A DNA stretch of 64,000 bases from contig NC_083570.1 in the NCBI RefSeq assembly GCF_027579695.1, positions 92,453,999-92,517,998 of the forward strand, in the 5' to 3' direction. Positions 3,109 to 64,000 of the stretch are shown here, piece after piece. The notes under the pieces are model-generated. The model did no database searches. It was not told the origin of the DNA and saw nothing but the letters and a program-made list of their open reading frames with translations. The DNA is from Neoarius graeffei. Its lineage: Eukaryota; Chordata; Actinopteri; Siluriformes; Ariidae. The number at the start of each line of letters is the position of its first letter. The first letter of the stretch is position 1. A program made the position numbers and the translations under genes.

Positions 3109-3111
3109 GGG

Positions 3112-6299: not shown

Positions 6300-6578
6300 T
6301 ATTCACAAAAAACTTTGGTCGGAGCCGTGTTTTTAAATTTGTGTTCTAACCGGAAGTGAGTGAAATAGAGAAAAGTTTGAACGACAGGAAGTTGTCCAGC
6401 TATAAACTTCTAAGATTAGCTCACAGTCTCAACAAATAACCGTGACTGGTTTGCTAGCGAAATGAACAAGTTTTGTATCACTGTGTGAACATTAAACATG
6501 ATTAGTAACGTTAACTAGCTTGCTAGCTGCATCTACGGTCCTGCTTTCCTTCCTGAAGAAGGTGTAAAACATCCCAAA
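6300..6578 (+). promoter_or_regulatory. nudt22: Probable NUDT22 promoter and 5' UTR
   Basis: An ETS-type site, CCGGAAGTG, lies at 6350-6358. No TATA box is evident in the 200 bases before the ATG at 6579. I infer that transcription starts between about 6360 and 6450. EXOSC3 is transcribed away from this gene, so the two form a divergent pair now 5.3 kb apart. Confidence 0.4.
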
Positions 6579-31572
<24,994 letters not shown>

Positions 31573-40300: not shown

Positions 40301-43300
40301 CCTAGATGTCACCCGGGATTGGTTAGCATCTAGGTGCTGAAAGGAACTTCCGGGCAGAATAATTTTGCACGTAACCTAGGTCTTAAATTACCCAAATGAG
40401 ATTTTAGACCAGGGCGGCACGGTGGTGTAGTGGTTAGCGCTGTCGCCTCACAGCAAGAAGGTCCTGGGTTCGAGCCCCGGGTCCGGCGAGGGCCTTTCTG
40501 TGTGGAGTTTGCATGTTCTCCCCGTGTCCGCGTGGGTTTCCTCTGGGTGCTCCAGTTTCCCCCACAGTCCAAAGACATGCAGGTTAGGTTAACTGGTGAC
40601 TCTAAATTGACCGTAGGTGTGAATGTGAGTGTGAATGGTTGGCTGTGTCTGTGTCAGCCCTGCGATGACCTGGCGACTTGTCCAGGGTGTACCCCGCCTT
40701 TCGCCCATAGTCAGCTGGGATAGGCTCCAGCTTGCCTGCGACCCTGTAGAAGGATAAAGCGGCTACAGATAATGAGATGAGATGAGATTTTAGACCAACA
40801 GTGCAAAATATCTCTGTATTTTAGACTTTTTTAGGCCTAAAATTGAAAATGTGTAATTTTAGACTTTTTTAGACTCCGCGGACACCCTGCATTATCCTTT
40901 TAGATGGAATTTCTACAAATTTTTCTGTAGATGTACTGAATTTGGCTTACAGTCACTCGCGTACACTCGTGCTAGTCATTATCAAATACAAAGCTTGACC
41001 GGGAAAAACAAATCCAGTTAGTTACGATGAGGTCACATGAAAGGTCCCTATAACTCCATGCTTGCTACTGTGAAGTCGAGCCCATGCATTCTAAGGCTAC
41101 GATAGCTAAGCGCTCGATAGAATGATTTAGTTATCTGTTCAGAAAAATAACCCGTCATCTAATCTTGTTCCATCTTGCAGTTGCACTCACTCGGCAGGCT
41201 TTCCTTTTCTTTTCCGCTGACTTTTAACTGGCAGGAGAGCGGAGTCCGCGATGTTTGCCCACGCTGACTTGTTTTGCTTAAAAGTAGGTCAAATACACCC
41301 CATGGTGGTCATGTGATATTGTTGCTCATTTTTGTTTTAGCAATCTCTGGAATCGTAAAACGTGGGACGCTTTTCGTCTCGGCAAAACAGTGACGCAAGA
41401 TGCACGGTGTGTACAGCAGCGAAACCTCTCAAAACTCCAACAGCAATAAAAATAGAACATTTTGCCCAGAATTCAACTTTGCAGTCAGAACCTTTAAAGG
41501 AGAGCTGAAGGCAAATTTATCATCATCAATACTATTTCTCATTTTATTAAATATTGGAATGCATTTTTGATAGCTATTTTGCCACTGCTACACTACCGCT
41601 CAAAAGTTTGGGGTCACCCAGACAATTTTTGTATTTTCCATGAAAAGCCACACTTTTATTTCCCACCATAAGTTGTAAAATGAATAGAAAATATAGTCGA
41701 GACATTTTTCTGGCCATTTTGAGCATTTAATCGACCCCACAAATGTGATGCTCCAGAAACTCAATCTGCTCAAAGGAAGGTCAGTTTTATAGCTTCTCTA
41801 AAGAGCTCAACTGTTTTCAGCTGTGCTAACATGATTGTACAAGGGTTTTCTAATCATCCATTAGCCTTCTGAGGCAATGAGCAAACACATTGTACCATTA
41901 ACACTGGAGTGAGAGTTGCTGGAAATGGGCCTCTATACACCTATGGAGATATTGCACCAAAAACCAGACATTTGCAGCTAGAATAGTCATTTACCACATT
42001 AGCAATGTATAGAGTGGATTTCGGATTAGTTTAAAGTGATCTTCATTGAAAAGAACAGTGCTTTTCTTTCAAAAATAAGGACATTTCAAAGTGACCCCAA
42101 ACTTTTGAACGGTAGTATATGTAATAGATCAGTCCATGTGTCAAAGCGATGGCCGTAAACGAGATTCGTTGAGACCTGGGCGAGACATCGTAGAACGGAG
42201 ATAAAATGTACAGCGGAAATCAAAGTGACCGACGTCAACCAACGTTGTCAAAAGACGCACGTGCCCTCTTTCGAATGCTAACGTAATCAAGCTGGAAGTT
42301 TTCCCTGTGTCCGAAATCGCTCCCAACTCACTATATAGTGGGGACGCTGTTTTGTAGCGCTGTCCGAAACCTTAGTGAGGATTATGTGGTAAATGCGCTC
42401 AGTATAATACGTATTTATCACAAAAATACATGCATGTATTTATTATTTTGAAAACCCACCAGCTGTCTGATCTGGCACGTTTTAATTGTGCGACAGTAAT
42501 GTCGTAAATACCAGCGCGATGGACTCGTCCTTATCCTGTCGTCTTTCCAACTCTTCTCTACTCCACGTTGGTTCGAAGTCGTATGGAATAATCTCCATGT
42601 CACGTACGCAAGGGAGGCGGATGCATGTGCAGGAGTATATGTACACATGCAAACGAGAATACAGGCAAAAGGGTCGGTCAAGGTGCAAACAGTATATCAA
42701 AGGCTAAGCGAGGACAAGAACGAGAGACAACGGGCAGAAAGGCTCGGTAATGCGTACATGCGTATCGTAATACTTCGTGATGCAAATGCATCAGCACAGT
42801 CCTTAAACAGGCAAACACAGAGTTCCTTAATTGAGCTCAGGTGTGCGCGCAGGACTGACACTCCATCACTGATGAAGCTGGCAAATCTTGAAATTAATCT
42901 AAATTGGGGGCGGCACGGTGGTGTAGTGGTTAGCGCTGTCGCCTCACAGCAAGAAGGTCCGGGTTTGAGCCCCGTGGCCGGCGAGGGCCTTTCTGTGCGG
43001 AGTTTGCACGTTCTCCCCGTGTCCGCGTGGGTTTCCTCCGGGTGCTCCGGTTTCCCGCACAGTCCAAAGACATGCAGGTTAGGTTAACTGGTGACTCTAA
43101 ATTGAGCGTAGGTGTGAATGTGAGTGTGAATGGTTGTCTGTGTCTATGTGTCAGCCCTGTGATGACCTGGCGACTTGTCCAGGGTGTACCCTGCCTTTCG
43201 CCCGTAGTCAGCTGGGATAGGCTCCAGCTTGCCTGCGACCCTGTAGAACAGGATAAAGCGGCTAGAGATAATGAGATGAGATGAATCTAAATTGGAACGA

Positions 43301-44306
43301 TATGGCGATCTGGCCGCTGTGTAAACAGTTTTCAAAATGGTGGCGGCGCTGACACGTCACGTTTGAAGTTTCGCACAAGTCTCGTGAAGATCGCGCGGAT
43401 AAGCGACGCCTGCCGTGGACCAAGCGAACTACATTCAACATGGCTAAAAACCGAAAAGGCCAATAAGTGTGATATAATATGCCAATACGAGTCACAATAT
43501 AAGGTTAATAAAACCGAAAACATAATTGAATAACACATTAATTAAGAAACAAAGCGAGTTTAAAAATAATTTCAGTTCCCCTTTAAGCAGAATGGACTGA
43601 ACGGAGCAGACAGCGTGCTAAACTCTTTCCAATTAGCAATAGACCTCCATGCGACTCTGAAGAGGTGTAAACAGTGCGAATGGTAACTCATGCACTTATT
43701 CACCTGTTCGGTGCAGGGCTGATAGTAATCTCTGTACTGCTGTGGATCGCTGTTATAACCGTAAGACTGAGAAAAAGCAGGAAAGTTCCATCCCTGAAGA
43801 CGAGAAAACACAGTTATATTGCATTTACAAGGTAAACGCCACAAGACACAAGTTTAATACAAAATAATGACGAGAATAAACTCACATTTTGTTTAAAGCA
43901 TCCCCACTGTGACTGCTGTGCATACTGACTGCAGCTTTGGCTCAGTTCTGGCAGATGGAAAAGCAGAATTCAACACAATGTTGTAAGTATAAGGCTCTAA
44001 TTATAGGAAAGCAGATGTTATCATAATTATCGACCATCTGTGTCAATCATTTAACGACGACAACGATTCTAGGTTCTGCCTTCTTTATGATTATCATCTG
44101 GTCCCGCACTCCGCCGTTTTCCTCACCAGGTGCTTCAATGGGACGTTTATGGGGACGTTTTTTGAGTCTCTTGCGTGTAGGTGCAGGTAGGAGACGCGTG
44201 GCTTCGTCTTTATAGCTTGCGAGGAGTTTCTGGGCTTCTTCGCTGCACAGCTCGACAAACAGGACGTCCTCCAGGAGACTGCCCTGCTCCGGCAGGGTGA
44301 AACTCG
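34242..44306 (-). CDS. Unidentified gene, last four coding exons (Tyr/Gln-rich tail)
   Basis: The exons, in transcript order, are 44306-44127, 43947-43886, 43793-43704 and 34316-34242. All have GT/AG borders and compatible phases, giving the C-terminal 135 residues and a stop. The first exon reads FTLPEQGSLLEDVLFVELCS, then a basic patch TRKRLKKRPHKRP. The next three are rich in Y, Q, N and S (YAQQSQWGCF, QSYGYNSDPQQYRDYY, NQSYYGNQSYYFGSQVFW), a low-complexity tail like those of RNA-binding or condensate-forming proteins. I do not recognise the gene. The first listed exon starts in mid-codon, so upstream exons exist, but I found none up to 46.2 kb. The 9.4-kb last intron is mostly transposons. 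Confidence 0.68.
34381..35040 (+). mobile_element. Harbinger-type MITE, family H1, copy 3
   Basis: 660 bp with TGA on both sides (34378-34380 and 35041-35043). Ends as in copy 2, to which it is very similar throughout. It lies in the last intron of the unidentified gene. Confidence 0.9.
35044..35726. other. Intronic sequence without recognised feature
   Basis: AT-rich; short reading frames only, and no terminal repeats were seen. Confidence 0.4.
35727..36388 (+). mobile_element. Harbinger-type MITE, family H1, diverged copy 4
   Basis: Left GGCCCTGTTTACATTA and right GGTCTAATGTAAACACCACC are the family ends, but the interior is diverged and carries a GA repeat. The flanks TAA and TGG do not match. 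Confidence 0.75.
35973..36020 (+). repeat. (GA)n microsatellite
   Basis: An imperfect GA/GAGC run inside the H1 MITE copy. Confidence 0.9.
36389..36900. other. Intronic sequence without recognised feature
   Basis: Begins with a G-run (TGGGGGGGGTAACG) and is otherwise AT-rich; no gene or repeat identified. Confidence 0.4.
36902..37420. mobile_element. hAT-like fragment (left terminus only)
   Basis: CAGGGGCGTAGCTAGGAGTT at its left is a typical hAT-like terminus. A minus-strand frame (36965-37408) has no recognisable domain. No right end was found. Confidence 0.4.
37705..37854 (+). mobile_element. 150-bp retroposed LINE tail with 19-bp duplication
   Basis: AATTTACCCACAAATGTAT flanks it exactly at 37686-37704 and 37855-37873. 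The insert ends GACAAAATAAAGACTGTTTC, a common teleost LINE 3' end. It is a severely 5'-truncated insertion. Confidence 0.88.
37874..38097 (+). other. Open frame of unknown origin, interrupted by the LINE tail
   Basis: The frame reads YLGNQLLDSGHYDILNYLVF, then KYKCLPIFRGRFRAGMEI. It looks protein-derived, perhaps from a transposon accessory protein, but I cannot name it. The LINE tail at 37705 interrupts the sequence upstream. Confidence 0.35.
39000..39110. mobile_element. Possible second hAT terminus
   Basis: TAGGGCTGTGCGATATGGG resembles the left end of ZBED-type hAT elements and may belong to the transposase remnant downstream. No right end was located. Confidence 0.4.
39477..40059 (-). 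pseudogene. BED-type hAT transposase N-terminal part, frameshifted
   Basis: It begins MEADELVPKRTSKGSVIWHF, a BED finger start (with MPVCEVCKK supplying the two Cys). The frame shifts near 39950 in a run of A. In the other frame it continues SSTTNMFHHLKLTRYS, KAIPYEKTSQRWRAITDAI and KHELPGRRHFTEKAIPALY, as in ZBED-like transposases. The final finger His is Tyr. The C-terminal catalytic and dimerisation parts are missing. Confidence 0.82.
40174..40261. repeat. Short MITE-like hairpin (GTTGCCAGAT), copy 2
   Basis: Same ends and interior as 13332-13438, slightly shorter. Confidence 0.7.
40280..40355. repeat. Inverted repeat around GCACCTAGATG
   Basis: CCCGGAAGTTTCTTTCAGCA is mirrored by TGCTGAAAGGAACTTCCGGG, with a loop of roughly 35 bases that also includes CACCTAGATG and CATCTAGGTG. 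Confidence 0.8.
40412..40785 (+). mobile_element. Full-length GAGAT-tail SINE with target duplication
   Basis: GATTTTAGACCA flanks it (40400-40411, 40786-40797). The B box GGTTCGAGCCC is intact. Confidence 0.95.
40897..41490. other. Intronic sequence without recognised feature
   Basis: No gene, terminal repeats or long frames were seen. Confidence 0.4.
41591..42115. mobile_element. Tc1/mariner-type MITE
   Basis: The ends CACTACCGCTCAAAAGTTTG and CAAACTTTTGAACGGTAG are inverted and next to TA. GGGGTCAC follows at each end. It resembles a common teleost element; no transposase. Confidence 0.83.
42303..42510. mobile_element. Fragment related to the intron-4 MITE
   Basis: TGTCCGAAATCGCTCCCAAC, ACTATATAGTG and then AACCCACCAGCTGTCTGATC match parts of the element at 28387-31176 in other orientations. 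Confidence 0.55.
42907..43283 (+). mobile_element. Full-length GAGAT-tail SINE with target duplication
   Basis: AATCTAAATTG flanks it (42896-42906 and 43284-43294). Confidence 0.95.
43704..43793 (-). CDS. Unidentified gene, 90-base exon
   Basis: The acceptor TCTTCAG and donor CAG followed by GTGAAT bound 30 codons beginning GWNFPAFSQSYGYNSD and ending YYQPCTEQ. Confidence 0.7.
43886..43947 (-). CDS. Unidentified gene, 62-base exon
   Basis: The acceptor TTTTCCATCTGCCAG and donor AAAAT followed by GTGAGT bound it. It encodes LSQSCSQYAQQSQWGCFKQN, with the first Glu codon completed from the previous exon. Confidence 0.68.
44127..44306 (-). CDS. Unidentified gene, exon with basic patch
   Basis: The acceptor TTTATGGTCGTGCAG and donor CCTG followed by GTGAGG bound 180 bases. 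The frame enters with one base missing and leaves with one base over. Reading through the donor would give an alternative end after a further 25-30 codons. Confidence 0.68.
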
Positions 44307-44757
44307 CTGCACGACCATAAACAAAACAACAACAGGTTACTTTTACATATTTAAAAGAAACAGCAAAAAGCTGATGTTTGAAACCAGGTGGATAAATAAC
44401 CCATATGTCCAGATGTGGCAAGAAAAAAAAAAAAAAACAGGCTCTAAATAAATGTGTCCGTTTACAGCAGTTCATTTTCCATTGTTGAAAATTTCTAACT
44501 AAATACGTAGATGCTTGCTGCACACCTTTTCTGTGGTTACATGAAGTTTTGCTTGGAATATAACGTGCAAAGTTATACCCTACACAGTGAATCTACAAAG
44601 GGGGGACAAGTTAAAGGGTTCACTCATCCCCTTAGACCGAAAAGTCACTGCAAATCAATACAAAGTTATTCGGATTACTCTGATCAATGTTATCCTGGGA
44701 TGAAACTCTTCTATCCTTATAGCGCTGGTCTCGTCCAGAGCTCACTGAATGGTTTAA

Positions 44758-45060
44758 AGGAGAACTGAAGGCAATTTTTTTTCTCTCATTTTATTAAATA
44801 TAGGAACGCATTTTTGATAGCTATTCTGTCACTGCTATCGCAGGTTATGGGTGTTTGAAATATGCTCTGTAATATATCAGTCCATATGTCAAAGCAATGG
44901 CCATAAACGAGATTCGTTGAGACCTGTGCGAGACATCGTAGGACGGAAGTAAAACGTACAGCGGAAATCAAAGCGACCAACATCTACCAACGTTGTCAAA
45001 AGACGTGTGCGCCCTCTTTCGAATGCTGATTTAATCAAGCCGGAAGTTTTGTTTGTTTTG
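44758..45060. mobile_element. Second copy of the TTAA element, left part
   Basis: TTAA then AGGAGAACTGAAGGC, followed by ACGAGATTCGTTGAGACCTG and GACATCGTAGGACGGA, match the element at 41498 without its nested insertions. The right end is unclear; TTAA near 45235 is a candidate. Confidence 0.6.
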
Positions 45061-45252
45061 ATAGCAATCAGGAAAGTTTGAAAAAAGTAGGCAGTAATCG
45101 TCATTTCAACTCGTTTTTGTGCAATACTTCGTTTGGAAAACAGTTTTCAAAATAAAACATTTGTACCACCTCCATTTTTCTTCTCTTTTCTTTAGTTTTA
45201 CAGCAGTCTATTAAGAGAGAGCGCTGAGTTTCCTCTTAAATCTATTTGCACA

Positions 45253-45616
45253 GGGTAGCACGGTGGTGTAGTGGTTAGCGCTGTCACCTCACAGCAAGAA
45301 GGTCTGGGTTCGAGCCCCGTGGCCGGCGAGGGCCTTTCTGTGTGGAGTTTGCATGTTCTCCCCGTGTCCGCGTGGGTTTCCTCCGGTTTCCCCCACAGTC
45401 CAAAGACATGCAGGTTAGGTTAACTGGTGACTCTAAATTGACCGTAGGTGTGAATGTGAGTGTGAATGGTTGTCTGTGTCTATGTGTCAGCCCTGTGATG
45501 ACCTGGCGACTTGTCCAGGGTGTACCCCGCCTTTCGCCTGTAGTCAGCTGGGATAGGCTCCAGCTTGCCTGTGACCCTGTAGAACAGGATAAAGCGGCTA
45601 GAGATAATGAGATGAG
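45253..45616 (+). mobile_element. GAGAT-tail SINE with target duplication
   Basis: ATCTATTTGCACA flanks it (45240-45252, 45617-45629). Confidence 0.95.
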
Positions 45617-45629
45617 ATCTATTTGCACA

Positions 45630-46265
45630 CTCAATCACACAACAGCCCTTTCCCATTTTAGATCTGTTTTTTGTGTTTTCGCAGCATTAGAGCTGTGTTA
45701 CTTCCATCTATGATGAAGTCACGTGCATGCATTCCTGCTGTTATATAGGGTGCTGTGCTTTCTGCTGTTTCAACACAATTACATTTTGGAAAAACTAAGA
45801 TTACGCAGCCTGATAATAATCGGGATTCGTTTTTTTTTACTTCATCGATTCGAATCGTCAAATTTGTCGAGCACATGATAAATATTTATCATGATGTGCC
45901 TAGTTACAGGTGTTTATACATGAACGAAAACATACTTATGAATGCTATATTCCATTTATGCTAACAGCTCTCTAAATCCTGCATATACTGTAGTGCATGT
46001 TTAAGCATTTCAAGTACCTTTTATGCATTTTATCCCTGTGTAAACTGTGACAATAAATCTCAAAAAAAGAGAAATTTATTGCATACGTTTGTTCTGTTTG
46101 TGTCAATATAACATTATAGGATCATGACTATCTGACTGAATCAATGCTAAATCTTAAGTAATTAAAATTCAGAGTCACGTGGGATTGCCGAGTAAAATGG
46201 CCGCACACTAGAAGTTGTCCAGAAGCGTCACCGAAATAATGTAATTTATCCATCTATATCTCCTC
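45630..46265. other. Non-coding stretch, no recognised feature
   Basis: No domain-bearing frame was seen. The more GC-rich patch with CACGTGGG and ATGGCCGCAC near 46176-46210 could be regulatory, but nothing confirms it. Confidence 0.3.
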
Positions 46266-47072
46266 ATTTACGATTATTTGCTATTATTTGTCTTCAATCA
46301 ATTAACTGCCTTCTTGATATCAAACAGCTGTTTTGATAACTTTCAGTCAGGATTTTGGGCCAATCATAGCACTGAAACAGCGCTGATTAAAGTTATAAAT
46401 GACATACGTCTTAATACTGATGCAGGCAAAACATCGGTCCTGGTGTTACTGGACCTCAGTGCAGCTTTTGATACTGCTGATCACAACATACTGCTATATC
46501 GACTTGAACACTGGGTTGGGTTGACTGGTAAAGTTATCAATTGGTTAAAATCATACTTAAAAGATAGAAGCTTCTTTGTTACCATGGGAAATTGTACCTC
46601 AACATCAATGTCCTTGACCTGTGGTGTCCCCCAGGGGTCGAGCCTTGGACCATTACTATTCAAACTTTATATGCTCCCACTTGGACAAATTATCAAGAAC
46701 AACTCAATTTTGTATCACTGCTATGCAGATGACACCCAAATTTATTTTATTTTTTTAAGATATTTTTTGGGCTTTTTTCACCTTTATTGGATAGGACAGT
46801 GTAGAGACAGGATAGGAAATGAGTGGGAGAGAGAGACGGGGAGGGATCGGGAAATGACCTCAGGTCGGAATCGAACCTGGGTCCCCGGATATATGGTATA
46901 GCGCCTTATCCACCTGAGCCACGACGCCCCACCCAAATTTATTTTGCTGTATCACCTAATGATTATGCCCCCCTTGAATGTCTCTACCAGTGTATCGACC
47001 AAATCAACAACTGGATGTCACAAAATTTTCTTCAGCTGAACACAGATAAAACAGAAGTAATTCTATTTGGGA
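46266..47072 (+). pseudogene. L2/CR1-like LINE reverse transcriptase fragment, split by a SINE
   Basis: The frame reads FQSGFWANHSTETALIKVIN, VLVLLDLSAAFDTADHN (RT motif with catalytic Asp), CGVPQGSSLGPLLF and CYADDTQIYF (YADD box). After the SINE (46749-46930) it resumes with QINNWMSQNFLQLNTDKTEV and ends at an abrupt junction with the L1 near 47070. Removing the SINE and one duplication keeps the frame. Confidence 0.85.
46749..46930 (-). mobile_element. Unbroken SINE of the third family, with target duplication
   Basis: ACCCAAATTTATTTT flanks it (46734-46748, 46931-46945). The right end is the reversed tRNA-like head (ATCGAACCTGGGTCCCCGG, CTGAGCCACGACGCCCC). Confidence 0.92.
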
Positions 47073-47630
47073 AAAAAGACGAAAGCCATGCAAGAACAGC
47101 TGACTGAGGCCGAAACCCGAATATCCGAAGTGGAGGACACTACCCAACAACTGGTCAACGACCGTGAGGTACACCGTAGGCGTATAGACACACTGTGGAG
47201 TCGTGTAGAAGATTTGGAAAACAGAAGCCGCCGTAACAATGTCAGGCTGCTAGGTCTGAAGGAGGGCGCTGAGGGAAACAACTTAAAGGCATGCATTGAA
47301 AGGATCTTGTCTGAGGGTTTAGGCATGGACATTGACAGTGAATTTGAGATTGAAAGGGCACATCGTTCTCCCGGATATCGTCTGGAGGAAAACCAACCAC
47401 AGAGACTAATAATGATTCGATTCTTACGTTCGTCTGCGAGAGAAAAGGTGCTTAAAGCAGCAAGGGAGAAAAGGGGAGCAATGTGGAGCGGATGCAACCT
47501 CTCGCTTTTTCCAGATATGACAAAGGTTCTGGCTGAAAGCAGAAAGGCCTTTACAACGGCCAAACAACTACTGCACGCCAAGAAAGTGAAGTTCACCCTC
47601 GCGTTTCCTGCGACACTACGGTTCACATAG
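47067..47630 (+). pseudogene. L1 ORF1-like protein (coiled coil plus RNA-binding domain)
   Basis: 187 codons. Residues 8-55 are heptad-like (LTEAETRISEVEDTTQQLVN), a coiled coil for trimer formation. The rest matches the L1 ORF1 RRM region (NVRLLGLKEGAEG, LIMIRFLRSSAREKVLKAAR). ORF1 proteins coat L1 RNA. The N-terminus is probably truncated, and the C-terminal end is cut by a stop. Confidence 0.78.
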
Positions 47631-49578: not shown

Positions 49579-52500
49579 ATTTATTTTCCTTAATCCGCAC
49601 TATTTTGATCAAAGAATACAGCAGGGCAAGCATGGCAGCAGACATTTTGATTCAAGAGAAAATTACCCAGAATTCCGTGCACTGGGGGTCTGAGGGCTCT
49701 AGAGGACCTGGTGTGAACAGAAAGAGGACTGAGGCCCCATCAAAGCTTAACTGGACCAGAAAGAGAACCCAGTCCTCTTTGTAATAAATTCACAGTGTGA
49801 ACACAAAAAGAACTGAGTTCTTTTTCTGTTGGTCCACTTTTTGGTCCACTTAAAAGAGGACTGAGTCTGGTTCCTTTAAAGGGGACCAGGTGTGAAAACA
49901 CCCTTAAACTTCAACGAACAGACATAGCATTTATTCAAGAAACACACCTAAAGGATGATGAGGCTAAACAATTTAAACGAGATTGGGTGGGGCAAGTTTT
50001 TTATAGTTCTTTTTCCAGCAAGAAAAATGGAGTTCTTATTTTGGTACACAAAATGTTAAATTTCTCATTGGTAAGGGAATTTTGGGATGCGAATGGTAGA
50101 ATTATTTGTCTTGATACCATCATAAACGGCATGGAATTAACACTCTAATATTTATGCCTCCAATAAAGACGAGCCATCTTTTTTCCATGAGGTTAATAGC
50201 ATATCAGGGAATGCACAAGGTAAAGTGGTTTTGGCAGGAGATTTTAACCAGGCTTTGGATAATACATTAGATAAAAGCAGATTTTCCCGAACCGTAATAC
50301 CTAAGGATAGAGCAGCCATTCACATGTTGATGAGAGACAATGGTTTGATTGACATATGGCGTTTGGTTAATCCAAATAAATGAGAATATTCTTTTTACTC
50401 TCATTGCCACGGGTCCTTTTCACGTATAGATATTATTTTGATCTCTCAGAATCTAATCAATGCCGTCATCGACAGCAACATTAATGCTATTTCACTGTCA
50501 GATCATGCACCTGTTGAACTCATTATAAAAATATACACCCAGACAGAATCAGGCGAGGTAGATGGAGGATGAATACTTCCATGCTGCAAGGTGAGGTATT
50601 TCATAATGAACTGGCTGAAGATCTGTCATCGTTCTTTGAGATCAACATGGGTAGTACAGACAGTGTGGCAATGGTCTGGGAGGCATCAAAAGCTTACATT
50701 AGAGGTAAAATAATTGCGCAAACTTCCAAAAAGAAAAAAGAGCACATTAACACTTAAAAAACTGGAAGCAGAATTAATCATAATGGAGAGAGAACTGGCC
50801 AAGCATTATACAGATAGTCTGTTTCATAATATTTGCAAATGTAAATTCAAAACATATGAAATATTTAACAAAAAGGCTGAATATGCTCTATTTAGATTGA
50901 AAACGAAGCAGGAGAGGAGAGAAAACAGGCAGGCTTCTGGCTAGACAGCTTAAGGAGCAAAGCACTGCTCATGTATTCCCAGTGATAAGAAGAGGGGGGT
51001 CACTAGTAACATCTTCCAAGGGAATTAATGAGGTCTTCAAAAGTTTTTATGAGAAGCTGTATAGATCAGAAGGTATGCCAAACAAACTATCATTGCAGAA
51101 CTTTTTCTCAAACATAACTCTTCCAAGCCTGACGGTAGATATTCTTGACAAATCAGTGTCCCAAGAGGAGGTGATAAAAGCTATCCGAGCTATGAAAACA
51201 GGGAAATCACCTGGAACCGGCGGGTTTCGTGTTGAATATTACAAAGAGTATATAGACATAATTACTCCAGTTTTGACTAAGGTGTATGAAGAGGCTTCCA
51301 CCATCTCTGAATGAAGCGCTCTTATCGTTGATTCCTAAAAAAGGCAGAGACCATACAGATCCTGCCAATTTCAGGCCAATTAGCCTAATTAATGTAGATA
51401 GCAAAATACTGGCCAAGGCATTAGCCCTAAGGCTAGAAACAGTTTTACCAGACATTATACACCCAGACCTGGTTGGTTTCTTACAGGGTAGAATTTCGAC
51501 TTATAATCTACGAAGGCTTATACGTTTGATATGGTTACACTCCTCCAACACTGCATCGGTGGCTGCAGTCTCATTGGACGCTGAGAAGGCCTTTGACAGG
51601 GTCGAGTGGGGTTTTCTTCACTCGGCCCTGTCAAGATTTGGGTTTGGAACTGGTTTCGTGAAATGGATTAAGATACTGTACAGTAATCCTAAGGCAGCAA
51701 TTATGACAAATGGTCTGATCTCATCATTCTTTAACCTCTCCAGAGGAACACGACAGGGGTGTCCTCTATCACCACTTCTATTTACAATTGTCTTGGAACC
51801 TCTGGCGGTAGCTATAAGAGCAAACTCCTCCATCAAAGGAGTGAAAGAAGGGGGTAGTGAACATAAGCTAATGCTTTATGCTGACGACATACTTTTTCTG
51901 ACTAGTGACCCACAAAACTCCCTACCTGCTTTAATGGATACGATCAGTGAATATTCTCAGCTTTCAGGTTACAAAATTAATTGGACCAAATCTGAAGCAA
52001 TGCCAATATCCAAACACTGTCATCCACAAGTAATGAGACAGTATAACTTTAAATGGATCCCAAAGGGCATGGTCTACCTGGGTATCAAGTTGAGCCCAGA
52101 ACTTTAGTGAAATGACTGCATTGAACTATGATCCACTGCTTCAAAACTCAAGACAAATATAGGGAAATGGGAGAAGTTAAACCTGACCTTGTGTGGCAAA
52201 GTAAATGTTATTAAAATGGGGATTGCCCCACAAATTAATTATATATCCATGATGCTTCCGCTCAGTATACCAGATCATATTTTTAAACAGTATGATAATC
52301 TCATCAAGGAATTTCTTTGGGCAGGGAGGAAACCTAGATTTAAACTGAGCAAACTGTTCGCACCTAAGGATAAAGGTGGGCTGGGTTTACCTAATATTAG
52401 ATTGTATAGCTTGTCTTTTGAAATGGCTAAGATAGCTAAACATTGGAGCGGAATAGTGTCTGGCTTAAGACGGGCCACCATAGAAGAGACTCTTGCATCC

Positions 52501-53585: not shown

Positions 53586-54533
53586 TACTTGCAGATTAGA
53601 CACTGCATAATGGAAAAAAAAGTCAGCCAAATAAAAGTAGACAATCCAGTTGCTGACTACTTCCAATAGCCATGTAATCATAAGGCATCAGTAATTTATA
53701 ATAAATCGATTTGTTTGACCAGTGGCACATGTGAAAATTTAAGAATAATTTGGCAGAGGGAACTTGATTGTGAAATTGACAAAGATATCTGGGAACAAAT
53801 TTTGGCAGATAATGGTAAATATATTAAAGAAATGAAATGTAAATTTATTCAATACAAAATGCTACACAGGTTTTATTGGACACCATGCAGGCTTTTTAGA
53901 ATAGGGCTAATAACTAGTAACATCTGCTGGAAATGTTAAAAGGAAACTGGCACATTTCGGCATCTCATATGGGATTGTGCTATGGTCAAGCCCTTCTGGT
54001 GCAGAATATCGGGGTTCTTGGAGACATGGATGGGAGTGGACCTGCCAGCATGCCCACGCTTATGCCTTTTAGGAGAGAAGACCGTAATACCACAGCTGAC
54101 TAAAGACGCTCATTCAGTGTTGATGGTTGGGTTAGCCTCAGCTTCTAGAATCATACTACGGCACTGGAAAAATCACCCGTAAACCCAACGTTCCAAGAAT
54201 GGAAAGTTTTAATGAGTGAGACAGTGTCGTGTGAGATCATGCTTGCTAGAATAAGGGGCAAAGGGCCTGTGGCACTGGGTAGCTGGGACTTCTTTGCAGG
54301 AGTATCTGACCTCTGGACTAGCAGCTTAGTTATAGGGCTCTACTATGAAGCCTATATTCACCTTTTCTGTTCTTGTGTTAAGATTATACTTTGTACGTTT
54401 TTTCTTTCAACCAGGAACACTTATCAAATTACGTTAACTGTCTGACCTTTTTTTTTCTTTTTCTATCTTTGCTTTTCTGTGTGATGTACCATATGAGCCA
54501 TGTACCACAGTTGTTCAAATAAAAACTTTAATT

Positions 54534-54760
54534 AGGGCCCGAGCCCGAAAGGGCGAAGGCCCTATTGATCTTGTTCGGTTTTTTATTATTAGGGCCCGAG
54601 CCCGAAAGGGCGAAGGCCCTATTGATCTTGTTCGGTTTTTTATTATTATTAGGGCCCGAGCCCGAAAGGGCGAAGGCCCTATTGATCTTGTTCGGTTTTT
54701 TATTAGGGCCCGAGCCCTATAGGGCGAAGGCCCTATTGATCTTGTTCGGTTTTTTATTAT
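54534..54760 (+). repeat. Four tandem hairpin heads (AGGGCC..GGCCCT)
   Basis: Copies start at 54534, 54591, 54651 and 54705. Each pairs AGGGCC with GGCCCT (6 bp), then has a CGA/GAA internal loop, then GCCC/GGGC closing on GAAA (TATA in the fourth). Each is followed by ATTGATCTTGTTCGG, a T run and ATT repeats. A fifth copy is at 57053. Confidence 0.9.
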
Positions 54761-54788
54761 TATTATTCTTATTATTATTATTATTATT
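54761..54788 (+). repeat. (ATT)n before repeat unit 1
   Basis: ATT units with one CTT, directly joining the hairpin heads to the first 2,252-bp unit. Confidence 0.95.
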
Positions 54789-57040
54789 CCTTAGTCGCGG
54801 TCGCTGTTCGGCCTTTTTTGGGGCACTTCCTGTGGACGAAAACGCGCATATTTTGGATCATTTTATCGGCATCCCCTACGCTACTCAGATCCAAAACCCC
54901 AGATCTGGGCGGGGCTCTGGGCCTCTATAGCGCCCCCTAACGCCTTGAAAATTTTGCCTTTTTTCGAAGGCTCCTGGTTGCCATATAGTTTGTCGTAGAG
55001 GAACGAAATTTGGTTCACATATGTATCTTACTGAGACGAACAAAAAAAGTTCTATGAATGCATAGCCACGCCCAACAGGAAGTGAGGTAATTTTACTTTT
55101 GTGCGAAATGCATGGCCACGAAGACGGCGCAACTCCTCCTAGACCGTTCATGGGAATGTCACCAAAATTGATACACATCATCTACAGACATGGCTGACAA
55201 AAGTTACTAAATACGTTTCACGTAGGATAAAACGTTCAGAAGTTATACGTCAATCAATTTTCACTTCAAAATTTTACATGCTAAAAAATTCATAACAAAT
55301 CTTCTAATTGCTCAAAACTGCTCATACTTCACACGCAAATCACTCATTGGGCTTCTGACATGTTACCCAATTTCTGTGATATTTCGCCACTGGGGGCGCT
55401 ATTTTTGGGCAAAAAATCCAATCTTTCCTCAAATTTGGTCAAACTTCACGGCCACCCTCTTACTACCTCCCATGTCATGTATACCGCATTTTGGGAATTT
55501 TCGTCCATGGGGGGCGCTGTTTTTGGCCGACGCAATTGCTCCAAAACGGGTTTTTGGTAAATAATTCCATAATGCTTTTCCTTCACACCACTACCTTGCG
55601 ATAGTGCGTTCCTGTTGTAGACACTTATTTTTCCAACTCATAATCGCTCATGTACAGCATAGCGCCACCTTCTGACATGGGAAAAACCAAAAAATTTATT
55701 CTTCAAAAATCTATATCTCATCTTCTATTTACTCAATTGTCATCAAACTTCATACGCAAACTCTTCATAGCTCACCTGACATGTCCGCCAAATTTTGTGC
55801 ACTTTCGCCCCTGGGGGTGCTGGTTATGGCGGAAATGATATTGCAGCTTCTGATTTGTCAAACTTGGCAAGCAAACTCTTTTCAAGACCCTTATTGGGGC
55901 GCTTGCCATGGTCGACAACGCACGAAATTTGGCTCCTTTTTCTTAGACTGCCACCGCTACTGAGAACCAAAAGCCCAGATCCAGCCGGGCCTCAGGGCCT
56001 CTATAGCGCCCCCTAACTCGTTGTGATTTTGGCCTCCCGCTTTAAGGTGCCTGGTTGCCATGTAGTTTGTAGGAGTGGCATGCCATTTGGTACGCATATG
56101 TATCTCACTAAGCCGGACAAAAATGTAATGCCAATGCATTAGCCACGCCCAACAGGAAGTGAGGTAATTTCACTTTTGTGCGAGATGCATGGCCACGAAG
56201 ACGGCGCAACTCCTCCTAGACTGTTCATAGGAATGTCACCAAAATTGATACACATCATCTACAGACATGGCTGACAAAAGTTACTAAATAAGTTTCGCGC
56301 AGCTTAAACCGCTCAGAAGTTATACGTCAATCAATTTTTAATGCAAAATTTTACATGCTTAAAAATTCATAACAAATCTTCTAATTGCTCAAAACTGCTC
56401 ATACTTCACACGCAAATCCCTCATTGGGCTTCTGACATGTTCCCCATTTTCTGTGATATTTCGCCACTGGGGGCGCTATTTTTGGGCAAACAATCCAATC
56501 TTTCCTCAAATTTGGTCAAACTTCACGGCCACCCTCTTACTACCGCCCATGTCATTTATACCACATTTTGGGAATTTTCGTCCATGGGGGGCGCTGTTTT
56601 TGGCCGACGCAATTTCTCCAAAACGGGTTTTTGGTAAATAACTCCATAATGCTTTTCCTTCACACCACTACCTTGTGATAGTGCGTTGCTGTTGTAGACA
56701 CTTATTTCTCCAACTCATAATCGCTCATGTACAGCATAGCGCCACCTTCTGACATGGGAAAAACCAAAAAATTTATTCTTCAAAAATCTCTCTCATATCT
56801 TCTATTTACTCAATTGTCATCAAACTTCATACGCAAACTCTTCATAGCTCTCCTGACATATCCGCCAAATTTTGTGCACTTTCACCCCTGGGGGTGCTGG
56901 TTATGGCACAAATGATATTGCAGCTTCTGATTGGTCAAACTTGGCAAGCAGACTCTTTACGGTATTTCGCGGGGACGCATGCCCCCGCCCCCCCTGGCCG
57001 CTGGCGCGAGGGCCCGTCGAGGCCGCTTGCGGCTTTAATT
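54789..57040 (+). repeat. 2,252-bp repeat unit 1 (dimer of ~1.08-kb modules)
   Basis: Starts CCTTAGTCGCGGTCGC and ends GAGGCCGCTTGCGGCTTTAA TT. Matching landmarks (GCCTCTATAGCGCCCCCTAA at 54921 and 55998; TGATATTTCGCCACTGGGGG in both halves) are 1,077 bp apart, so the unit is a head-to-tail dimer of diverged halves A and B. Open frames occur in all halves but no domain is recognisable and they overlap on both strands; I treat them as non-coding. Confidence 0.93.
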
Positions 57041-57052
57041 CTTATTATTATT

Positions 57053-57097
57053 AGGGCCCGAGCCCTATAGGGCGAAGGCCCTATTGATCTTGTTCGG

Positions 57098-57104
<7 letters not shown>
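57053..57104 (+). repeat. Single hairpin head before unit 2
   Basis: AGGGCCCGAGCCCTATAGGG, then CGAAGGCCCT, followed by the same ATTGATCTTGTTCGG segment; this is the TATA-loop version. Confidence 0.9.

Positions 57105-57142
<38 letters not shown>
57105..57142 (+). repeat. (ATT)n before repeat unit 2
   Basis: About 12 ATT units. Confidence 0.95.
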
Positions 57143-57143
<1 letters not shown>

Positions 57144-59394
57144 CTTAGTCGCGGTCGCTGTTCGGCCTTTTTTGGGGCACTTCCTGTGGACGAAAACGCG
57201 CATATTTTGGATCATTTTATCGGCATCCCCTACGCTACTCAGATCCAAAACCCCAGATCTGGGCGGGGCTCTGGGCCTCTATAGCGCCCCCTAACGCCTT
57301 GAAAATTTTGCCTTTTTTCGAAGGCTCCTGGTTGCCATATAGTTTGTCGTAGAGGAACGAAATTTGGTTCACATATGTATCTTACTGAGACGAACAAAAA
57401 AAGTTCTATGAATGCATAGCCACGCCCAACAGGAAGTGAGGTAATTTTACTTTTGTGCGAAATGCATGGCCACGAAGACGGCGCAACTCCTCCTAGACCG
57501 TTCATGGGAATGTCACCAAAATTGATACACATCATCTACAGACATGGCTGACAAAAGTTACTAAATACGTTTCACGTAGGATAAAACGTTCAGAAGTTTT
57601 ACGTCAATCAATTTTCACTTCAAAATTTTACATGCTAAAAAATTCATAACAAATCTTCTAATTGCTCAAAACTGCTCATACTTCACACGCAAATCACTCA
57701 TTGGGCTTCTGACATGTTACCCAATTTCTGTGATATTTCGCCACTGGGGGCGCTATTTTTGGGCAAAAAATCCAATCTTTCCTCAAATTTGGTCAAACTT
57801 CACGGCCACCCTCTTACTACGTCCCATGTCATGTATACCGCATTTTGGGAATGTTCGTCCATGGGGGGCGCTGTTTTTGGCCGACGCAATTGCTCCAAAA
57901 CGGGTTTTTGGTAAATAATTCCATAATGCTTTTCCTTCACACCACTACCTTGTGATAGTGCGTTCCTGTTGTAGACACTTATTTTTCCAACTCATAATCG
58001 CTCATGTACAGCATAGCGCCACCTTCTGACATGGGAAAAACCAAAAAATTTATTCTTCAAAAATCTATCTCTCATCTTCTATTTACTCAATTGTCATCAA
58101 ACTTCATACGCAAACTCTTCATAGCTCACCTGACATGTCCGCCAAATTTTGTGCACTTTCGCCCCTGGGGGTGCTGGTTATGGCGGAAATGATATTGCAG
58201 CTTCTGATTTGTCAAACTTGGCAAGCAAACTCTTTTCAAGACCCTTATTGGGGCGCTTGCCATGGTCGACAACGCACGAAATTTGGCTCCTTTTTCTTAG
58301 ACTGCCACCGCTACTGAGAACCAAAAGCCCAGATCCAGCCGGGCCTCAGGGCCTCTATAGCGCCCCCTAACTCGTTGTGATTTTGGCCTCCCGCTTTAAG
58401 GTGCCTGGTTGCCATGTAGTTTGTAGGAGTGGCATGCCATTTGGTACGCATATGTATCTCACTAAGCCGGACAAAAATGTAATGCCAATGCATTAGCCAC
58501 GCCCAACAGGAAGTGAGGTAATTTCACTTTTGTGCGAAATGCATGGCCATGAAGACGGCGCAACTCCTCCTAGACTGTTCATAGGAATGTCACCAAAATT
58601 GATACACATCATCTACAGACATGGCTGACAAAAGTTACTAAATAAGTTTCACGTAGCTTAAACCGCTCAGAAGTTATACGTCAATCAATTTTTAATGCAA
58701 AATTTTACATGCTTAAAAATTCATAACAAATCTTCTAATTGCTCAAAACTGCTCATACTTCACACGCAAATCCCTCATTGGGCTTCTGACATGTTCCCCA
58801 TTTTCTGTGATATTTCGCCACTGGGGGCGCTATTTTTGGGCAAACAATCCAATCTTTCCTCAAATTTGGTCAAACTTCACGGCCACCCTCTTACTACCGC
58901 CCATGTCATGTACACCACATTTTGGGAATTTTCGTCCATGGGGGGCGCTGTTTTTGGCCGACGCAATTTCTCCAAAACGGGTTTTTGGTAAATAATTCCA
59001 TAATGCTTTTCCTTCACACCACTACCTTGTGATAGTGCATTGCTGTTGTAGACACTTATTTCTCCAACTCATAATCGCTCATGTACAGCATAGCGCCACC
59101 TTCTGACATGGGAAAAACCAAAAAATTTATTCTTCAAAAATCTATCTCTCATCTTCTATTTACTCAATTGTCATCAAACTTCATACGCAAACTCTTCATA
59201 GCTCTCCTGACATATCCGCCAAATTTTGTGCACTTTCACCCCTGGGGGTGCTGGTTATGGCACAAATGATATTGCAGCTTCTGATTGGTCAAACTTGGCA
59301 AGCAGACTCTTTACGGTATTTCGCGGGGACGCATGCCCCCGCCCCCCCTGGCCGCTGGCGCGAGGGCCCGTCAAGGCCGCTTGCGGCTTTAATT
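57143..59394 (+). repeat. 2,252-bp repeat unit 2
   Basis: Exactly the same length as unit 1, with scattered single-base differences, for example C to T near 57960 and G to A near 59373. Confidence 0.93.
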
Positions 59395-59409
59395 ATTATT
59401 ATTATTATT
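59395..59409 (+). repeat. (ATT)n between units 2 and 3
   Basis: Five ATT units; no hairpin head here. Confidence 0.95.
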
Positions 59410-61661
59410 CCTTAGTCGCGGTCGCTGTTCGGCCTTTTTTGGGGCACTTCCTGTGGACGAAAACGCGCATATTTTGGATCATTTTATCGGCATCCCCTAC
59501 GCTACTCAGATCCAAAACCCCAGATCTGGGCGGGGCTCTGGGCCTCTATAGCGCCCCCTAACGCCTTGAAAATTTTGCCTTTTTTCGAAGGCTCCTGGTT
59601 GCCATATAGTTTGTCGTAGAGGAACGAAATTTGGTTCACATATGTATCTTACTGAGACGAACAAAAAAAGTTCTATGAATGCATAGCCACGCCCAACAGG
59701 AAGTGAGGTAATTTTACTTTTGTGCGAAATGCATGGCCACGAAGACGGCGCAACTCCTCCTAGACCGTTCATGGGAATGTCACCAAAATTGATACACATC
59801 ATCTACAGACATGGCTGACAAAAGTTACTAAATACGTTTCACGTAGGATAAAACGTTCAGAAGTTATACGTCAATCAATTTTCACTTCAAAATTTTACAT
59901 GCTAAAAAATTCATAACAAATCTTCTAATTGCTCAAAACTGCTCATACTTCACACGCAAATCACTCATTGGGCTTCTGACATGTTACCCAATTTCTGTGA
60001 TATTTCGCCACTGGGGGCGCTATTTTTGGGCAAAGAATCCAATCTTTCCTCAAATTTGGTCAAACTTCACGGCCACCCTCTTACTACCTCCCATGTCATG
60101 TATACCGCATTTTGGGAATTTTCGTCCATGGGGGGCGCTGTTTTTGGCCGACGCAATTGCTCCAAAACGGGTTTTTGGTAAATAATTCCATAATGCTTTT
60201 CCTTCACACCACTACCTTGTGATAGTGCGTTCCTGTTGTAGACACTTATTTTTCCAACTCATAATCGCTCATGTACAGCATAGCGCCACCTTCTGACATG
60301 GGAAAAACCAAAAAATTTATTCTTCAAAAATCTATATCTCATCTTCTATTTACTCAATTGTCATCAAACTTCATACGCAAACTCTTCATAGCTCACCTGA
60401 CATGTCCGCCAAATTTTGTGCACTTTCGCCCCTGGGGGTGCTGGTTATGGCGGAAATGATATTGCAGCTTCTGATTTGTCAAACTTGGCAAGCAAACTCT
60501 TTTCAAGACCCTTATTGGGGCGCTTGCCATGGTCGACAACGCACGAAATTTGGCTCCTTTTTCTTAGACTGCCACCGCTACTGAGAACCAAAAGCCCAGA
60601 TCCAGCCGGGCCTCAGGGCCTCTATAGCGCCCCCTAACTCGTTGTGATTTTGGCCTCCCGCTTTAAGGTGCCTGGTTGCCATGTAGTTTGTAGGAGTGGC
60701 ATGCCATTTGGTACGCATATGTATCTCACTAAGCCGGACAAAAATGTAATGCCAATGCATTAGCCACGCCCAACAGGAAGTGAGGTAATTTCACTTTTGT
60801 GCGAAATGCATGGCCACGAAGACGGCGCAACTCCTCCTAGACTGTTCATAGGAATGTCACCAAAATTGATACACATCATCTACAGACATGGCTGACAAAA
60901 GTTACTAAATAAGTTTCACGTAGCTTAAACCGCTCAGAAGTTATACGTCAATCAATTTTTAATGCAAAATTTTACATGCTTAAAAATTCATAACAAATCT
61001 TCTAATTGCTCAAAACTGCTCATACTTCACACGCAAATCCCTCATTGGGCTTCTGACATGTTCCCCATTTTCTGTGATATTTCGCCACTGGGGGCGCTAT
61101 TTTTGGGCAAACAATCCAATCTTTCCTCAAATTTGGTCAAACTTCACGGCCACCCTCTTACTACCGCCCATGTCATGTTTACCACATTTTGGGAATTTTC
61201 GTCCATGGGGGGCGCTGTTTTTGGCCGACGCAATTTCTCCAAAACGGGTTTTTGGTAAATAATTCCATAATGCTTTTCCTTCACACCACTACCTTGTGAT
61301 AGTGCGTTGCTGTTGTAGACACTTATTTCTCCAACTCATAATCGCTCACGTACAGCATAGCGCCACCTTCTGACATGGGAAAAACCAAAAAATTTATTCT
61401 TCAAAAATCTATCTCTCATCTTCTATTTACTCAATTGTCATCAAACTTCATACGCAAACTCTTCATAGCTCTCCTGACATATCCGCCAAATTTTGTGCAC
61501 TTTCACCCCTGGGGGTGCTGGTTATGGCACAAATGATATTGCAGCTTCTGATTGGTCAAACTTGGCAAGCAGACTCTTTACGGTATTTCGCGGGGACGCA
61601 TGCCCCCGCCCCCCCTGGCCGCTGGCGCGAGGGCCCGTCGAGGCCGCTTGCGGCTTTAATT
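59410..61661 (+). repeat. 2,252-bp repeat unit 3
   Basis: Same length and structure as the other units; it carries A-to-G near 60035 relative to its sisters. Confidence 0.93.
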
Positions 61662-61691
61662 ATTCTTATTATTATTATTATTATTATTATT
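61662..61691 (+). repeat. (ATT)n between units 3 and 4
   Basis: About ten ATT units with one CTT. Confidence 0.95.
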
Positions 61692-63943
61692 CCTTAGTCG
61701 CGGTCGCTGTTCGGCCTTTTTTGGGGCACTTCCTGTGGACGAAAACGCGCATATTTTGGATCATTTTATCGGCATCCCCTACGCTACTCAGATCCAAAAC
61801 CCCAGATCTGGGCGGGGCTCTGGGCCTCTATAGCGCCCCCTAACGCCTTGAAAATTTTGCCTTTTTTCGAAGGCTCCTGGTTGCCATATAGTTTGTCGTA
61901 GAGGAACGAAATTTGGTTCACATATGTATCTTACTGAGACGAACAAAAAAAGTTCTATGAATGCATAGCCACGCCCAACAGGAAGTGAGGTAATTTTACT
62001 TTTGTGCGAAATGCATGGCCACGAAGACGGCGCAACTCCTCCTAGACCGTTCATGGGAATGTCACCAAAATTGATACACATCATCTACAGACATGGCTGA
62101 CAAAAGTTACTAAATACGTTTCACGTAGGATAAAACGTTCAGAAGTTATACGTCAATCAATTTTCACTTCAAAATTTTACATGCTAAAAAATTCATAACA
62201 AATCTTCTAATTGCTCAAAACTGCTCATACTTCACACGCAAATCACTCATTGGGCTTCTGACATGTTACCCAATTTCTGTGATATTTCGCCACTGGGGGC
62301 GCTATTTTTGGGCAAAAAATCCAATCTTTCCTCAAATTTGGTCAAACTTCACGGCCACCCTCTTACTACCTCCCATGCCATGTATACCGCATTTTGGGAA
62401 TTTTCGTCCATGGGGGGCGCTGTTTTTGGCCGACGCAATTGCTCCAAAACGGGTTTTTGGTAAATAATTCCATAATGCTTTTCCTTCACACCACTACCTT
62501 GTGATAGTGCGTTCCTGTTGTAGACACTTATTTTTCCAACTCATAATCGCTCATGTACAGCATAGCGCCACCTTCTGACATGGGAAAAACCAAAAAATTT
62601 ATTCTTCAAAAATCTATATCTCATCTTCTATTTACTCAATTGTCATCAAACTTCATACGCAAACTCTTCATAGCTCACCTGACATGTCCGCCAAATTTTG
62701 TGCACTTTCGCCCCTGGGGGTGCTGGTTATGGCGGAAATGATATTGCAGCTTCTGATTTGTCAAACTTGGCAAGCAAACTCTTTTCAAGACCCTTATTGG
62801 GGCGCTTGCCATGGTCGACAACGCACGAAATTTGGCTCCTTTTTCTTAGACTGCCACCGCTACTGAGAACCAAAAGCCCAGATCCAGCCGGGCCTCAGGG
62901 CCTCTATAGCGCCCCCTAACTCGTTGTGATTTTGGCCTCCCGCTTTAAGGTGCCTGGTTGACATGTAGTTTGTAGGAGTGGCATGCCATTTGGTACGCAT
63001 ATGTATCTCACTAAGCCGGACAAAAATGTAATGCCAATGCATTAGCCACGCCCAACAGGAAGTGAGGTAATTTCACTTTTGTGCGAAATGCATGGCCACG
63101 AAGACGGCGCAACTCCTCCTAGACTGTTCATAGGAATGTCACCAAAATTGATACACATCATCTACAGACATGGCTGACAAAAGTTACTAAATAAGTTTCA
63201 CGTAGCTTAAACCGCTCAGAAGTTATACGTCAATCAATTTTTAATGCAAAATTTTACATGCTTAAAAATTCATAACAAATCTTCTAATTGCTCAAAACTG
63301 CTCATACTTCACACGCAAATCCCTCATTGGGCTTCTGACATGTTCCCCATTTTCTGTGATATTTCGCCACTGGGGGCGCTATTTTTGGGCAAACAATCCA
63401 ATCTTTCCTCAAATTTGGTCAAACTTCACGGCCACCCTCTTACTACCGCCCATGTCATGTATACCACATTTTGGGAATTTTCGTCCATGGGGGGCGCTGT
63501 TTTTGGCCGACGCAATTTCTCCAAAACGGGTTTTTGGTAAATAATTCCATAATGCTTTTCCTTCACACCACTACCTTGTGATAGTGCGTTGCTGTTGTAG
63601 ACACTTATTTCTCCAACTCATAATCGCTCACGTACAGCATAGCGCCACCTTCTGACATGGGAAAAACCAAAAAATTTATTCTTCAAAAATCTATCTCTCA
63701 TCTTCTATTTACTCAATTGTCATCAAACTTCATACGCAAACTCTTCATAGCTCTCCTGACATATCCGCCAAATTTTGTGCACTTTCACCCCTGGGGGTGC
63801 TGGTTATGGCACAAATGATATTGCAGCTTCTGATTGGTCAAACTTGGCAAGCAGACTCTTTACGGTATTTCGCGGGGACGCATGCCCCCGCCCCCCCTGG
63901 CCGCTGGCGCGAGGGCCCGTCGAGGCCGCTTGCGGCTTTAATT
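61692..63943 (+). repeat. 2,252-bp repeat unit 4, right end of array
   Basis: Same length as the other units, ending GCGGCTTTAATT. Sequence after 63943 (AAAATTCAAACTG) is unrelated, so the array ends inside the window. Confidence 0.93.
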
Positions 63944-64000
63944 AAAATTCAAACTGTTTTTTAAAGGAATTGGATAACACTAGATCATGGTCATGCAAAA

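Follow-up and report, generated by a model that had tools for sequence, protein, structure and literature searches.

The genome of the catfish Neoarius graeffei (2.34 Gb, assembled in 38 contigs) carries on contig C2, within the stretch 92453999-92517998 that was analysed here as a whole (64,000 nucleotides; the window), an array of four long repeats, and this article discusses what these repeats are and how they came to stand in a row. The units lie at 54789-57040, 57143-59394, 59410-61661 and 61692-63943 of the window, and each is exactly 2,252 bp long, as an earlier reading of the letters alone (the original prediction) had put it. They align without a gap, with 22 variable columns in total, 4 to 17 differences per pair and a whole-unit identity of 98.9-99.5%. 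Each unit is also, as had been predicted, an internal dimer of two halves, A and B, which are offset by 1,076 bp and 91.7-92.5% identical over 1,007 columns; in the full A/B alignment the first 300 columns agree at about 69% and the next 780 at about 95%, and weaker repeats (67-70%) occur inside each half. Unit length and identity this high rule out chance for the repeats, and with the halves about 92% and the units about 99% alike, the proposed order of events, in which the dimer predates the copying, stands as well. The four repeats likely derive from a small transposable element of fish, one of the Helitron2 (Helentron) type, whose copies tend to insert within earlier ones or exactly at their tails.

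The repeat extends beyond the four units, because four 5' hairpin blocks, H, stand directly upstream (54534-54753) at distances of 57-60 bp and a fifth begins at 57053; these blocks are the element's true 5' end. All features of the array lie on the plus strand. The left host flank (54424-54533) is the 3' end of a long interspersed nuclear element (LINE) that terminates in ..AATAAAAACTTTAATT and so fits the target TWWTT described below; it matches six other places, one of which was read. Behind it follow H1 (54534-54590), the outermost 5' end of the array, H2 (54591-54650) and H3 (54651-54707), all three with a GAAA loop, and H4 (54708-54753), which has a TATA loop and is the 5' end of the innermost element, that of unit 1. 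Under nesting, H2 would be the 5' end of the element ending with unit 4 and H3 that of the element ending with unit 3. The (ATT)n tract of the innermost element, a landing-site sequence, was delimited by Tandem Repeats Finder at 54754-54788 and leads into half A of unit 1 (54789-55865), and then into half B with the tail T (55866-57040; T itself 56960-57040, with the palindrome GCCGCTTGCGGC and the end CTTTAATT). The spacers between the units are ATT tracts: CTT(ATT)3 at 57041-57052 is the rest of an interrupted tract, and is followed by H5 (57053-57101) and the (ATT)n tract (57102-57142, Tandem Repeats Finder) of the element carrying unit 2; (ATT)5 at 59395-59409 is the remainder that links T of unit 2 to A of unit 3, and an ATT/CTT remainder at 61662-61691 separates T of unit 3 from A of unit 4. 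Units 2, 3 and 4 all have the order A-B-T; unit 3 would under nesting be the body of an interrupted element and unit 4, the 3' end of the array, that of the outermost one. The right host flank (63944-64000) begins aaaattcaaac. Long near-identical repeats are hard to assemble, and an artefact with fewer units really present has to be considered; however, the units differ at the 22 columns and the same joints recur on many contigs, so that assembly error as the sole cause is unlikely, and a smaller true number of units is in our estimate extremely improbable.

A genome search with 1,101 bp of unit 1, in which the best 40 of 1,449 candidates were scored, gave near-identical copies on many contigs, and 20 stretches of 10 kb were fetched from the hits and read together with the window. 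They share one grammar: runs of H, (ATT)n, A, B and T, followed by (ATT)n-A, by another H or by other DNA. The layout of the element is accordingly H (AGGGCCC...), (ATT)n, A, B and T (...GCCGCTTGCGGCTTTAATT), and the mobile unit spans AGGGCCC to CTTTAATT, measuring 2,333 bp in the single copy at locus L019. The 2,252-bp block alone was considered as the mobile unit and rejected, being merely the body of this longer element with H, ATT and T. The unit length is 2,252 bp in 47 of 57 units of the window and these loci, the others being seven of 2,253 bp, one of 2,251 bp and two of 2,798 and 3,538 bp. After 70 tail ends stand (ATT)n-A in 38 cases, H in 24 and neither in eight, and 14 of the 24 tail-to-head joints have not a single spacer base, CTTTAATT abutting AGGGCCC. 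One of the eight remaining tails (L028) runs not into host DNA but into the longer body of a sibling subfamily, which has H and T in common with the present element and differs in its monomers and in an additional unique stretch; a 418-bp piece of it gave 358 candidates, 40 of which were scored. In the genome as a whole the exact 16-base 3' end GCTTGCGGCTTTAATT occurs 3,872 times and the exact tail-to-head joint T-H 1,209 times, with 0 occurrences of the reversed-pattern control in each case. Of the first 100 tails listed, all on contig C1, 87 fall in 17 clusters of at least two, and none of the 17 is of mixed strand; the spacing of tails inside clusters ranges from 279 to 6,335 bp, mostly 1.4-4.8 kb (70 spacings among these tails), which indicates that other unit lengths are common in the wider family.

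Two further observations on the arrays may be recorded. On the minus strand of C1:55773272-55935668 some 160 kb consist, with some gaps, of this element family in one orientation among the matches listed, and hold many exact tail-to-head joints. In addition, loci L020 and L024, about 650 kb apart on C2, agree in how their copies are ordered and almost agree in the spacing of three tails in succession, after which the number of H blocks differs.

The target was read from 29 matches of the GAAA-type H pattern, each with 13 upstream letters; ten were set aside because another H or a tail precedes them, and the other 19 together with L019 make 20 flanks taken as host. T stands at -5 and TT at -2 and -1 in all 20, and 19 of them read TWWTT. 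An empty site is seen at L025, where a copy sits in a common repeat: the joined flanks match straight through the joint at 94-98% in all 40 candidates scored (of 1,603), so that the insertion there took place without duplication or loss, though to which side the two T's belong cannot be told. The array of the window lies in the 3' end of a LINE copy and its joined flanks match six other LINE ends, five of which stop 4 nt beyond the joint, within A's and hence of little weight, and one 21 nt beyond it; as the LINE tail is rich in A, this site says less. On the element's own strand, both ATTATTATT and the end ..TTTAATT fit TWWTT, and the opposite strand of the ATT tract has no TT. From this one-strand match of the ATT tract and the tail it follows that new copies should land inside older ones or at their tails.

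The mechanism that we propose would run as follows. An enzyme from elsewhere, presumably a RepHel protein, would insert the element after TWWTT without target-site duplication, and the element's own (ATT)n and its own 3' end ..TAATT would serve as further target sites, on one strand only. Landing in the ATT tract of an older copy (1) would give H1-ATT-[H2-ATT-A2-B2-T2]-ATT-A1-B1-T1, leaving an H-H joint on the left and a T-(ATT)-A joint on the right, and landing exactly at the tail of an older copy would give a T-H joint. Repeated landings would build co-oriented arrays readable as brackets, in which H opens and T closes. The A-B dimer is a central tandem repeat of the usual kind for non-autonomous Helentrons, older than the present burst. 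The original prediction had considered rolling-circle or break-induced copying that starts in the ATT tracts; rolling-circle chemistry is retained as that of the best-fitting family, and the ATT tracts fit the role of landing sites better than that of starting points. On balance we lean to the view that a rolling-circle-type transposon carries its own landing pads, (ATT)n and the 3' terminus each matching the target on only one of the two strands, homes on itself and thereby builds long, co-oriented, satellite-like arrays in which the order of heads and tails is a bracket code of which copy landed in which. The ends, the target, an empty site, the exact joints and the overall counts and order are directly observed, whereas enzyme, strand transfer and landing, as opposed to later rearrangement, as the source of each joint are parts of this account that we infer.

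The account usually given for Helitron arrays is a different one, in which replication passes the tail terminator, or joined circles insert as multimers, and the arrays arrive head to tail as rolling-circle concatemers. The 1,209 exact tail-to-head joints agree with it; Helraiser is known to form circles whose ends are joined precisely (PMC5876387), and tandem Helitron arrays of bat and silkworm have been attributed to a bypassed terminator (PMC4067079; papers are cited here for the excerpts available of each). Nevertheless, concatemers alone give neither runs of H matched by T-(ATT)-A joints nor units that are hardly closer within than between arrays, and we regard them as unlikely to be the explanation, if still deserving a modest share of belief. 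If arrays grow by self-nesting, on the other hand, H should be as frequent as T, H-H joints as frequent as T-(ATT)-A joints, and heads and tails should follow each other in bracket order. Genome-wide there are 4,262 H and 3,872 T, numbers that are only roughly comparable as the patterns differ in length, and pattern counts in the window and the fetched loci give 60 H and 67 T. Of 54 classified units, however, only 26 have an H immediately in front of them. The exact patterns yield 241 H-H and 195 T-(ATT)-A joints, the latter with spacers of 3-33 nt; corrected for their detection in the window and the fetched loci (25 of 28 and 29 of 38, respectively), these become about 270 and about 256.

A near-balance is also seen in most of the single clusters counted. 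A first survey covered C1, C2 and up to 4 Mb of C3 and gave 14 clusters, of which 13 hold both types of joint, and all 13 start with H-H. The walk of openings and closings stays at or above zero in ten of the 14, its summed minima are -7 as against -19.0 in shuffled orders (P 0.00015), and the numbers of H-H and T-(ATT)-A per cluster are correlated (Pearson 0.99, Spearman 0.83), which is partly an effect of array size. A second survey, of C1 up to 53.9 Mb with all subfamilies, gave 32 clusters; the walk stays at or above zero in 28, and of the 16 clusters with at least two tails nine close exactly and 14 within one. Among arrays seen to both ends, L019 has H and T at 1:1 and L025 at 2:2, and the array on C20 has 7:7 provided that its left end, cut at the edge of the locus, lies where suggested. 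When the nine H runs of L019, L025, the window, C23 and C20 were shuffled among these arrays, only 1.7% of the arrangements gave an equal or better balance. Furthermore, mean left remainders (3.82 ATT units) and right remainders (7.95) add up to whole tracts (12.96) within error, the difference being -1.19 (95% interval -3.09 to 0.79).

As to the age of the copies, the expectation that one unit was copied four times in place does not agree with the data, since units differ at 10.5 positions on average within arrays and at 11.4 between arrays, and of the window's four units only 3 and 4 have one another as tied nearest relatives. The loci were picked by similarity of their A half to that of the window, so the comparison of A is biased; B halves show 6.7 differences within and 7.5 between arrays. 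Fifty-five full units lie on average 6.1 positions from their consensus; 157 of their variants are private and 39 shared, a pattern that is consistent with a recent burst.

Several observations weigh against self-nesting and are gathered here. In the first survey only five of the 14 clusters close exactly and ten within one, four dip below zero, and the largest cluster (C1, about 128.4-128.6 Mb) ends at +8, with 32 H-H against 24 T-(ATT)-A; in the second, two of the 32 clusters end at +2 and -3, and 14 are single pairs or single ends and uninformative. H and T stand at 5:4 in the array of the window and at 7:6 in that on C23, one unit below expectation, L017 has one body too many, and at L020 H blocks have doubled with no tail to go with them. 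The nulls obtained by shuffling are weak, as every tandem array would have H at its start and T at its end; because much of the order is expected in any heads-first array, the evidential weight rests on the per-cluster balance. Paired ATT remainders show no trade-off: in 11 simple pairs rho is +0.64 (P 0.03) and the sum is looser than in permuted pairs, and without one row of the long type the ten remaining pairs give rho +0.51 (P 0.13) and a standard deviation of 5.33 against 4.54 when permuted. This result may be noise, ATT tracts changing fast, and it yields no support for nesting. The loop type of H has no diagnostic column (best P 0.12), and the detailed pairing of brackets is not proven. 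Neighbours can differ in orientation, the L017 array having an oppositely oriented sibling copy about 230 bp upstream. The slight closeness of units within arrays is as extreme in 44 of 1,000 shuffles for whole units and in nine of 1,000 for B halves, and plain local duplicates exist, such as identical units 4.6 and 11.1 kb apart on C20. With these duplicates, with the neighbouring units of L027 that are one difference apart, with H runs of periods near 57 bp and with a paired-tract test that does not favour nesting, local tandem duplication and unequal exchange via the ATT tracts might be invoked instead, with slippage removing H from between T and A and minisatellite-like multiplication of H in other places. 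However, it would then be a coincidence that H and T are nearly equal in total number and that H-H and T-(ATT)-A joints are so within clusters, and the order of the joints in clusters also speaks against it, so that we consider this course quite unlikely. Self-nesting is finally not helped by the search for its enzyme: no RepHel gene with the ends AGGGCCC and CTTTAATT was found at five Helitron_like_N loci read in part (20 kb around one on C4 and 4.5-5 kb downstream of four others, of 56).

No gene for the enzyme was found in the array. The only frame of at least 130 codons touching it (54532-54927, across the H blocks) has no Pfam match, and a Pfam scan of all 29 such frames of the window gave seven with matches, to LINE reverse transcriptase (two), an L1 RNA-binding domain, Tc1-type transposase (three) and the exosome protein RRP40, and none to a Rep, helicase or recombinase. 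The claim that no protein in the window explains the movement of the unit is thereby upheld. In the genome there are 56 Helitron_like_N matches, and one long RepHel frame, of which 2,148 of 2,443 codons were scanned, contains Helitron_like_N and PIF1 domains. No exact tail lies within 3 Mb of the Helitron_like_N locus C1:11300843 among the matches listed, and a generalised 3'-end pattern, modelled in part on a zebrafish-like variant of the tail, had no match in either viral_contigs or genome_contigs; neither Rfam nor tRNA scanning returned anything for the window. The RepHel loci have repeats of their own: a 54-bp tandem repeat lies inside the 2,443-codon frame (L033, 4618-5301), tandem repeats with a period near 1.17 kb follow downstream of this frame (L034, about 2943-9545), and a second RepHel class also has repeats in the 4.5 kb read downstream.

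The canonical Helitron (Helitron1) inserts between A and T. It is defined by 5'-TC and 3'-CTRR ends (PMC3627910), and the present element, with AGGGCCC and CTTTAATT, has neither. In Helitron2, an inverted repeat lies 0-2 bp from the 5' end, within the 5' hairpin, and another, immediately before the 3' hairpin, at 20-30 bp from the 3' end (PMC3627910). The present element has an inverted repeat within the 0-4 bp from its 5' end that characterise Helitron2 and the non-autonomous Helentrons (HINEs), and this forms a hairpin in which the terminal AGGGCC pairs with GGCCCT 18 nt on (-10.4 kcal/mol, z -2.2, for the GAAA form); the TATA form of H folds by a different pairing (-11.1, z -2.8). A GGGCCC inverted repeat begins 31 nt from the end, the expected place; only 6 bp of it are perfect and these are self-palindromic, and it matches the 5' end at 10 of 14 positions, direct matches scoring equally. 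The 3' palindrome stops 7 nt from the end, where about 8-35 bp would be looked for, and the 37-nt tail folds otherwise than by this palindrome and no better than shuffles (z -0.57). The target is rich in T or TT and is not duplicated (20 of 20 flanks and the empty site of one insertion), and the interior is non-coding, with a microsatellite, (ATT)n, and central tandem repeats, the A-B dimer. The element works like a Helentron and probably is one. A Crypton-like circle, which a tyrosine recombinase would insert at T-rich sites and into its own copies through short homology (TT or ATT), would also yield exact head-to-tail joints without target-site duplication, and the TT found on both sides might be taken for a short direct repeat. 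The 5' hairpin and the arrangement of the repeats, however, correspond to what is described for Helitron2 and HINEs, which leaves this origin very improbable.

Within that family the likenesses and differences are as follows. The Helitron2 group (PMC3627910) has the same placing of inverted repeats, the insertion after T runs and the lack of duplication, but its inverted repeats are stated to be 8-15 bp long, unlike the 6-bp palindromic core and overall 10/14 match found here. HINEs of a mite, Culex and Drosophila (DINE-1) likewise have a palindromic repeat by the 5' end and before the 3' palindrome, and further a microsatellite, central repeats, a T-rich target without duplication and TT at both ends (PMC4067079); the present element differs from them in a sharper target, TWWTT, two central monomers of 1.08 kb, and large arrays that look self-nested. 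Cg_HINE of the Pacific oyster (PMC7492417, PMC8268682) also has a left flank with a subterminal repeat, a complementary repeat and a microsatellite, then satellite-like repeats and a right flank with a palindrome, and a TT target without duplication, but its monomers are mostly 160-180 bp and it is described as dispersed, not as self-nested arrays. Head-to-tail copies are also known from tandem Helitrons of bat, silkworm, maize and other plants (PMC4067079, PMC5876387, PMC7492417), including Helitrons directly adjoining one another in bat and maize (PMC4067079); in contrast to these, inner copies of the present arrays mostly keep complete tails, and the joints fit landing in the element's own ATT or at its tail.

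Other features of the window lie outside the array. LINE pieces with two reverse transcriptase frames and an L1 RNA-binding domain occupy 46245-47627 and 51277-52104, and the RVT_1 frame of the latter lies upstream of the array's left LINE flank. Two copies of a Tc1-type transposon (15033-16641 and 25781-27387) are 95% alike; one has a 358-codon open frame with a Sleeping Beauty-like helix-turn-helix and a DDE_3 domain, and that of the other is split into two. A 750-bp palindrome at 18043-18792 is 97% self-complementary, and a repeat family of up to about 375 bp is present in at least eight copies, complete or partial, that are roughly 88-98% alike, at 1-8160 and 40410-45618. Moreover, an N-terminal piece of RRP40 on the minus strand (1033-1425) is apparently an exon of a host gene.

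In the open-licence literature, searched by titles and the starts of abstracts and with the end sequences, no fish repeat of this kind was found, and no title concerned self-nesting through an internal microsatellite. One paper, to judge from its title, reportedly describes the disruption of (GAAA)n microsatellites of Lepidoptera by a helitron-like element, so that landing in microsatellites as such is already known. If the self-nesting described here is true, it would offer a simple and testable way for a dispersed transposon to become tandem satellite-like DNA with neither concatemer replication nor unequal crossing-over involved, and it would explain why copies within an array have the same orientation. 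It would also suggest a use for the microsatellites that HINEs carry, namely as landing sites, and the order of insertions within an array would be readable from the sequence alone through the order of its brackets.

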